This document shows, in pieces, positions 37,110 through 38,199 of a stretch of DNA of 64,000 nucleotides (positions within the stretch are counted from its first letter, which is position 1; the number at the start of each line of letters is the position of its first letter). Location: NCBI GenBank assembly GCA_019637075.1, contig JAHBWI010000007.1, positions 62,001 to 126,000 of the forward strand. Direction: 5' to 3'. The notes under the pieces were generated by a model that saw only the letters and a program-made list of their open reading frames with translations, did not search any database and had not been told where the DNA came from. This DNA comes from Nitrospiraceae bacterium (lineage in GTDB: Bacteria > Nitrospirota > Nitrospiria > Nitrospirales > Nitrospiraceae). The position numbers were made by a program, and so were the translations under genes.

Positions 37110-37529
37110 CTAGCCCTGTTTACGAGTCCGCGCTCGGCGTGGTGCCTTCTTCGCCGGGAGCGGAGGTTTGGCTGCCGTTCCACCCGGAATGCGCACGGAC
37201 CGCGCATCGCCCCAGAGACGTTCCAGGGCGTAATGTTCGCGGATGTCCTTTTGAAAGATGTGAGCCACCACGTCACCGAAGTCCATGACGATCCACTTGG
37301 CGGACGTAGACCCCTCCACGCTCAGCGGGGCGTGGCCCTGGGCACGGAGCACATCACTGACATGGTCCGCAATGGCGCGAGCCTGACGTTCCGATTCTCC
37401 GGAGCCCAGCACCAAATAGTCGGCGACGGAGGTGAGTTTCGCAATGTGCAGGATGAGGACGTCTGCGGCCTTCTTGTCGAGGATGGCTCCCGCAATGGCA
37501 AGAGCTTTGGCCTTTGATTCAGGTACGAT
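37110..37529 (-). CDS. rsfS: RsfS, ribosome silencing factor, with apparent ATC start, 139 aa
   Basis: RsfS binds ribosomal protein L14 and blocks subunit joining. The conserved region is complete when read from 37526: VPESKAKALAIAGAILDKKA, then DVLILHIAKLTSVADYLVLGSG, SAKWIVMDFGDVVAHIF and YALERLWGD. Between an in-frame TGA upstream and the conserved domain no ATG, GTG or TTG exists; the first canonical start (TTG/GTG in DYLVLG) would remove a third of the fold. ATC at 37527-37529 lies six bases after a perfect GGAGG (37536-37540), so it is the likely start. The gene overlaps the nadD end by 11 bases. A sequencing error or frameshift is the alternative. A basic tail of about 25 residues follows the domain. 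Confidence 0.85.
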   Translation of the reverse strand: MVPESKAKALAIAGAILDKKAADVLILHIAKLTSVADYLVLGSGESERQARAIADHVSDVLRAQGHAPLSVEGSTSAKWIVMDFGDVVAHIFQKDIREHYALERLWGDARSVRIPGGTAAKPPLPAKKAPRRARTRKQG

Positions 37530-38199
37530 CGGCGTCCTCCATGTATAACTTGTGAGTCAGTATATAAGATTCGACCTGGACGGGCAACAGATTTGCCAGC
37601 GATGCCTGCTGCCGCAGGCGAGTTCTGATTTCGGAGGCCGATACGTCGCACGGGGGAAGCTTGAGCAGGATGAGCGTGGAGCGAGATGAGAGCGGGAGGT
37701 CGGCTCGAGTTTGGGTGCCGGCATCCAAGGCGGCCAGGGTGGCGACCGAAGTGGTCTTGAAGGCCGGCAGCTTGGTCAGGCTTTGGAAGGACGTCGCCGG
37801 TCTCGAAATGACGATGAAGTGGCACAGGCTCAGAAGAGTATCTGATTCCTTCCAAGATGGCACATCGAGAAAGGCATCCAGCCCCACGATAAAAAACAGC
37901 TCTGTGCCTGGCTCCTGCTCCGGAAGGAGGGCACGGAGGGTATCGATGGTGTAGGACTTTCCCGGCCGGCGGAGTTCGAGATCGCTGGCTGAAAATCCCT
38001 CGTCATCCTGGATGGCCAATTCCACCATTCGGAGGCGGTGATGGGCGGAGGCAAACGACCCGGGTGGTTTATGTGGTGGGTCGCCCGTAGGAATGAACAG
38101 AATGCGGTCGAGGCCGACGCACGACCTGGCGGCGCGGGCAACGGACAGGTGGCATTTGTGAATCGGATTAAAGCTGCCGCCGAGGATTCCGAGCTTCAT
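37519..38199 (-). CDS. nadD: NadD, nicotinate-nucleotide adenylyltransferase, 226 aa
   Basis: NadD adenylylates nicotinate mononucleotide in NAD synthesis. The nucleotidyltransferase motif GGSFNPIHKCHL (GxFxPxHxxH) is at residues 7-18 and the second motif VSASEIRTRL is near the C-terminus. The order obgE-proB-nadD-rsfS is common in bacteria. Its last eleven bases overlap the proposed rsfS start, and its final codons contain the rsfS ribosome site. The start at 38199 is an ATG. Confidence 0.96.
   Translation of the reverse strand: MKLGILGGSFNPIHKCHLSVARAARSCVGLDRILFIPTGDPPHKPPGSFASAHHRLRMVELAIQDDEGFSASDLELRRPGKSYTIDTLRALLPEQEPGTELFFIVGLDAFLDVPSWKESDTLLSLCHFIVISRPATSFQSLTKLPAFKTTSVATLAALDAGTQTRADLPLSSRSTLILLKLPPCDVSASEIRTRLRQQASLANLLPVQVESYILTHKLYMEDADRT

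Follow-up and report, generated by a model that had tools for sequence, protein, structure and literature searches.

The gene for ribosome silencing factor (rsfS) in nitrite-oxidizing Nitrospira-type bacteria is very probably translated from AUC, a very rare start codon that has been kept in more than 100 related genomes. Comparison of sequences supports AUC as a conserved start that is not forced by the overlapping nadD gene, is relaxed where a canonical codon lies nearby, and is shared with infC, the gene for initiation factor IF3. We consider likely the whole account developed here, an AUC start, a promoter internal to nadD and IF3-linked synthesis of RsfS, in which IF3 repression, co-regulation and purpose are the parts that we infer.

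The rsfS start region in the window

The window, the whole stretch of 64,000 nucleotides, carries rsfS in an arrangement where its start is overlapped by the end of nadD (Table 1). The predicted product matches both TIGR00090 (5.6e-31) and PF02410 (2.8e-30), with domain scores well above the curated cut-offs (106.6 bits against 56.9 and 104.8 bits against 21.6, respectively), and the frame is open from the ATC down to its stop at 37112-37110 on the minus strand. Read 5' to 3' on the rsfS strand, the start region is TATACTGACTCACAAGTTATACATGGAGGACGCCGATCGTACCTGAATCAAAGGCC, and the frame following the upstream TGA runs CTC ACA AGT TAT ACA TGG AGG ACG CCG ATC GTA CCT GAA TCA AAG GCC. A sequence-only reading of this DNA had proposed that rsfS starts at ATC behind GGAGG, with an in-frame TGA upstream and no ATG, GTG or TTG ahead of the conserved core. 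The coordinates given for this site are correct and the lack of a canonical codon is confirmed, as the first in-frame ATG, GTG or TTG is a TTG at 37415, within the RsfS domain. The stop-to-stop frame has the ATC at residue 10 and enters the domain match at residue 20-21; a protein initiated at this ATC is predicted to begin (f)M-VPESKAKALAIA. Predicted RNA folding around the start codon was ordinary (z = +1.44) and gives no indication that structure controls rsfS.

Table 1. Features of the rsfS start region, in coordinates of the window.
Feature	Positions	Strand	Basis or remark
rsfS (ribosome silencing factor) CDS	37110..37529	minus	PF02410, TIGR00090, frame, conservation
ATC start codon of rsfS	37527..37529	minus	zero entropy, 105 distinct 60-mers
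Shine-Dalgarno GGAGG of rsfS	37536..37540	minus	positions -11 to -7 nearly invariant in relatives
TGA closing the rsfS frame upstream	37557..37559	minus	in-frame; no ATG/GTG/TTG from there to the core
-10 box TATACT, putative rsfS promoter	37559..37564	minus	17 nt after the -35 box
-35 box TTGCCC, putative rsfS promoter in nadD	37582..37587	minus	TTGCCN in 143/143 distinct sequences
nadD (nicotinate-nucleotide adenylyltransferase)	37519..38199	minus	overlaps rsfS start; TGA 37521-37519

Conservation of the ATC codon and the overlap with nadD

A match to rsfS was found in 218 of the 235 genomes of the order, in which the named relatives are Nitrospira and Nitrospiraceae and the window's genus is represented by one genome. 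Our sample within the family Nitrospiraceae comprised 147 rsfS loci from 21 genera, with one genome that has two copies counted twice; many of the genomes are metagenome bins and they are not phylogenetically independent. All 117 family genomes that lack GTG at codon -1 have ATC exactly at the rsfS start; over the whole family set the count is 125 of 147, single-contig genomes among them. The gene has three sequence attributes of genes with an IF3-repressed noncanonical start: no ATG, GTG or TTG at the start, a near-cognate ATC at a proper Shine-Dalgarno distance (a spacer of 6 nt, ACGCCG), and conservation of the codon in relatives. Entropy is zero at all three bases of the ATC, compared to 1.3-1.9 bits at positions -5 to -1; each base of codon -1 carries 1.3-1.6 bits, and variation is also seen in the second codon. 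The nadD gene served as a control at the same loci: its motif was found in 128 genomes, and every one of them has a canonical start upstream of it.

The exceptions to ATC are confined to one situation. Outside the N. defluvii group (g13), 75 of 120 genomes, the window's included, contain no canonical codon from the upstream stop to the rsfS core, 39 have one in the rsfS frame only far upstream (>4 codons), and six have GTG at codon -1 followed by ATC (four in g15, two in g17). Within g13, GTG occupies codon -1 in 24 of 27 genomes, of which 22 have changed ATC to AGC and two keep both codons, and the three genomes without this GTG all keep ATC. Every one of the 22 ATC losses therefore coincides with GTG at codon -1, and GTG ATC intermediates are found in g13, g15 and g17. 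The 22 losses may reflect a single event, so the pattern is a strong one but not one replicated many times. The sequence-only reading would have been undone by relatives that use a canonical start and have lost this site; the ATC is instead kept across the 21 genera and is lost only where GTG was gained one codon upstream. Separately, several g15 genomes (G064, G066, G069, G091, G096, G102, G120, G136) have a TAG inside the matched rsfS stretch, possibly reflecting a shortened C-terminal tail.

These comparisons bear on several other explanations for the ATC. A single genome by itself is unable to exclude a base error, which the earlier reading had wanted excluded by resequencing, but the independent genomes carrying an identical ATC exclude it here, and we regard the probability of a sequencing or assembly error as negligible. 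It is also extremely unlikely that translation begins at a distant upstream canonical codon, with the ATC read as an internal isoleucine codon. An open frame with such a codon is available in the 39 genomes noted above, but none at all is present in the other 75; the frame upstream of rsfS is broken at varied places in a region that is nadD in another frame, and in the window itself the in-frame TGA refutes a distant start. The overlapping gene could in principle impose the ATC, making it uninformative on rsfS initiation, as the nadD frame reads xAT Cxx across the codon and A(+6) C(+7) resemble a conserved nadD Thr codon. However, nadD overlap cannot explain the invariance of the ATC, because its T(+2) is a wobble base in nadD, synonymous there and yet T in 99 of 99 sequences, while T and C both occur in 10 of the 11 remaining nadD columns of NAY type (T fraction 0.21 to 0.87). 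The sole other T-fixed column among the 12 is the TAT lying within the -10 box. Moreover, g13 swaps precisely this T for G once GTG is present, and a constraint from nadD would leave rsfS still needing a start codon, all of which makes imposition by nadD very improbable. Decay of the ATC after a shortened nadD, where no other start is available, was not seen among the family genomes compared.

A putative rsfS promoter within nadD

All 143 distinct family sequences carry TTGCCN-N17-TATA[C/A]T within the 3' end of nadD, and its distance from the ATC is nearly constant. The -10 box is TATACT in 120 of these and TATAAT in 23; the TATAAT form occurs in many genera, where its TAA serves as the upstream in-frame stop of rsfS. 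Within 1.25 kb of the window, this sigma70-like site is the only one resembling a promoter. It falls on nadD codons that do not vary (Leu TTG in 129/129, Tyr TAT in 126/126, Ile ATA in 129/129), and TTG and ATA are rare in the remaining conserved Leu and Ile columns of that gene, which on comparative grounds indicates that the site is a dedicated rsfS promoter. The rsfS mRNA probably begins at this promoter, with a transcript start that would lie near 37552 and a leader of some 20-25 nt.

A dedicated promoter also weighs against a prfB-like scheme in which the internal Shine-Dalgarno sequence would stimulate ribosomes to shift +1 as they finish nadD, so that RsfS is made fused to NadD. The nadD frame does enter the rsfS start in a register that would suit a +1 shift, and a Shine-Dalgarno sequence is present upstream. 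Against this, the offset of the nadD stop varies (+8, +14, +20 and beyond) while the spacing between the Shine-Dalgarno sequence and the ATC is fixed, and the ATC is lost only alongside a gain of GTG. The fixed stop or slippery site adjacent to the Shine-Dalgarno sequence that characterizes prfB-type programmed frameshifting was not found, and we consider a fusion of this kind highly unlikely.

The infC parallel and a possible link to IF3

The sequence-only reading had drawn a parallel to infC, and this is supported, as infC in these bacteria likewise begins at ATC. The infC ATC is invariant across the sampled family, the window genome included; it follows a GAGGTG-like sequence and often has a stop codon shortly before it. 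Two other families of the order, f2 and f3, start infC with ATC as well. Four f4 loci (L242, L243, L248, L253) may have an ATG at infC, unlike the rest of the order. To gauge the rarity of such starts, reciprocal best gene pairs were screened, with about 460 kb of the 4.06 Mb genome set against 1.2 Mb from G139, which belongs to a different genus, for homology reaching upstream of the first canonical codon. Among the 288 pairs, covering about a tenth of the genome, the two clear cases were infC (17/17 residues identical) and rsfS (31/41). The remaining matches, judged by eye as a group, look like shadow frames rich in arginine or brief, weak extensions beside an ordinary start.

Beyond the family, 64 of 119 scorable rsfS loci lack a canonical codon between the stop and the core, with some of the upstream distances in these loci resting on ungapped extrapolation. 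Candidate rsfS starts are ATA (f2, f22), ATT (f4 g28), GTC (f8) and TTA (f27, f29), and infC in the outside-family groups is mostly ATA or ATC. Presumed Thermodesulfovibrio-type genomes (f28) have ATG at rsfS, while infC stays ATA. The f8 loci (L372, L373, L378, L381, L383) have a conserved GTC seemingly at the start, the same codon as in Streptomyces sigR. In f27 and f29 (L339, L340, L342, L399, L403-L405 and others) an apparent TTA start lies behind AGGGAGG, with no ATG, GTG or TTG from the stop to the rsfS core; TTA is possibly the start here but is the least secure candidate. Initiation at UUA would be highly unusual. Outside the phylum, the rsfS genes examined have mostly TTG or ATG, with one possible CTG.

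Repression of noncanonical starts by IF3 is documented, as is autoregulation of infC, which begins with ATT in E. coli and ATC in Streptomyces (PMC5472188). In S. aureus reporters, noncanonical starts cut yield to roughly a tenth of that from AUG (PMC13009471). RsfS orthologues bind uL14 on the 50S subunit and block subunit joining; IF3 blocks joining as well, and loss of rimM in E. coli raises the levels of both factors together (PMC13246957). The rsfS start resembles the AUU, AUC and AUA starts of autoregulated infC in its non-G-ending codon, strong Shine-Dalgarno sequence and conservation, but RsfS is a 50S anti-association factor, so that control by IF3 would act in trans rather than as autoregulation. 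The IF3-repressed Streptomyces sigR likewise is not infC yet keeps a noncanonical start, GTC, and follows the same logic in its sequence (PMC5472188); sigR encodes a sigma factor and its case is proven experimentally, while rsfS belongs to the ribosome-association machinery and has a start supported by sequence comparison. The S. aureus genes ccpN (AUA) and cvfC1 (AUU) also combine conserved noncanonical starts with a strong Shine-Dalgarno sequence, in genes other than rsfS and with starts demonstrated by ribosome profiling and reporters (PMC13009471). The E. coli orthologue of rsfS (ybeB) has a weak start, UUG, which unlike AUC is canonical (PMC10917681). No noncanonical rsfS start turned up in a literature search of limited coverage, which does not prove novelty.

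In the mechanism that we propose, the strong Shine-Dalgarno sequence at fixed spacing would select the AUC of rsfS, and IF3, which is known to destabilize initiation complexes at noncanonical codons, would discriminate against it. Synthesis of RsfS would thereby be held low and would increase under a shortage of IF3 relative to 30S subunits, which could let one signal tune both anti-association factors, IF3 for the 30S and RsfS for the 50S subunit. As IF3 is known to discriminate such codons, some IF3 dependence of rsfS is expected, and we think it reasonably probable that the dependence is of measurable size. A serious rival is that AUC is indeed the start but merely sets a low, constant level of RsfS, an excess of which would be harmful, with no dynamic link to IF3. 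Weak rsfS starts elsewhere fit such a role, including UUG in E. coli (PMC10917681) and TTG in several other phyla, and the assorted weak candidates within this phylum (ATA, ATT, GTC, TTA) are what would be expected if weakness alone matters. On the other hand, it is specifically ATC that is invariant in the family, identical to the codon of infC, and IF3 is the known discriminator of codons of this type. We lean against a constant level while giving it real weight.

That infC shares the rare AUC with rsfS suggests a common start-codon check on RsfS and IF3. This pairing is not obligatory, since rsfS uses UUG in E. coli (PMC10917681) and ATG in the Thermodesulfovibrio-type genomes, the latter alongside an infC that begins with ATA. 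More tentatively, infC and rsfS could form a small translational regulon in Nitrospirota in which the anti-association factors of both ribosomal subunits are read from start codons that IF3 discriminates against and free IF3 sets the levels of both, an idea that we find somewhat less likely than not. In such a regulon the rsfS codon would have turned over among ATC, ATA, ATT, GTC and possibly TTA, in each case keeping two of the three canonical bases and shunning G at the third position.

The rsfS gene of these bacteria probably joins the genes with conserved noncanonical, IF3-sensitive starts, and its AUC stands out for how deeply it is conserved, for being paired with infC and because it lends itself to testing. 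The N. defluvii group provides a natural experiment, containing genomes that escaped to GTG and others that did not. If it is true that IF3 controls RsfS, initiation fidelity and ribosome silencing would be joined in these bacteria via one codon.
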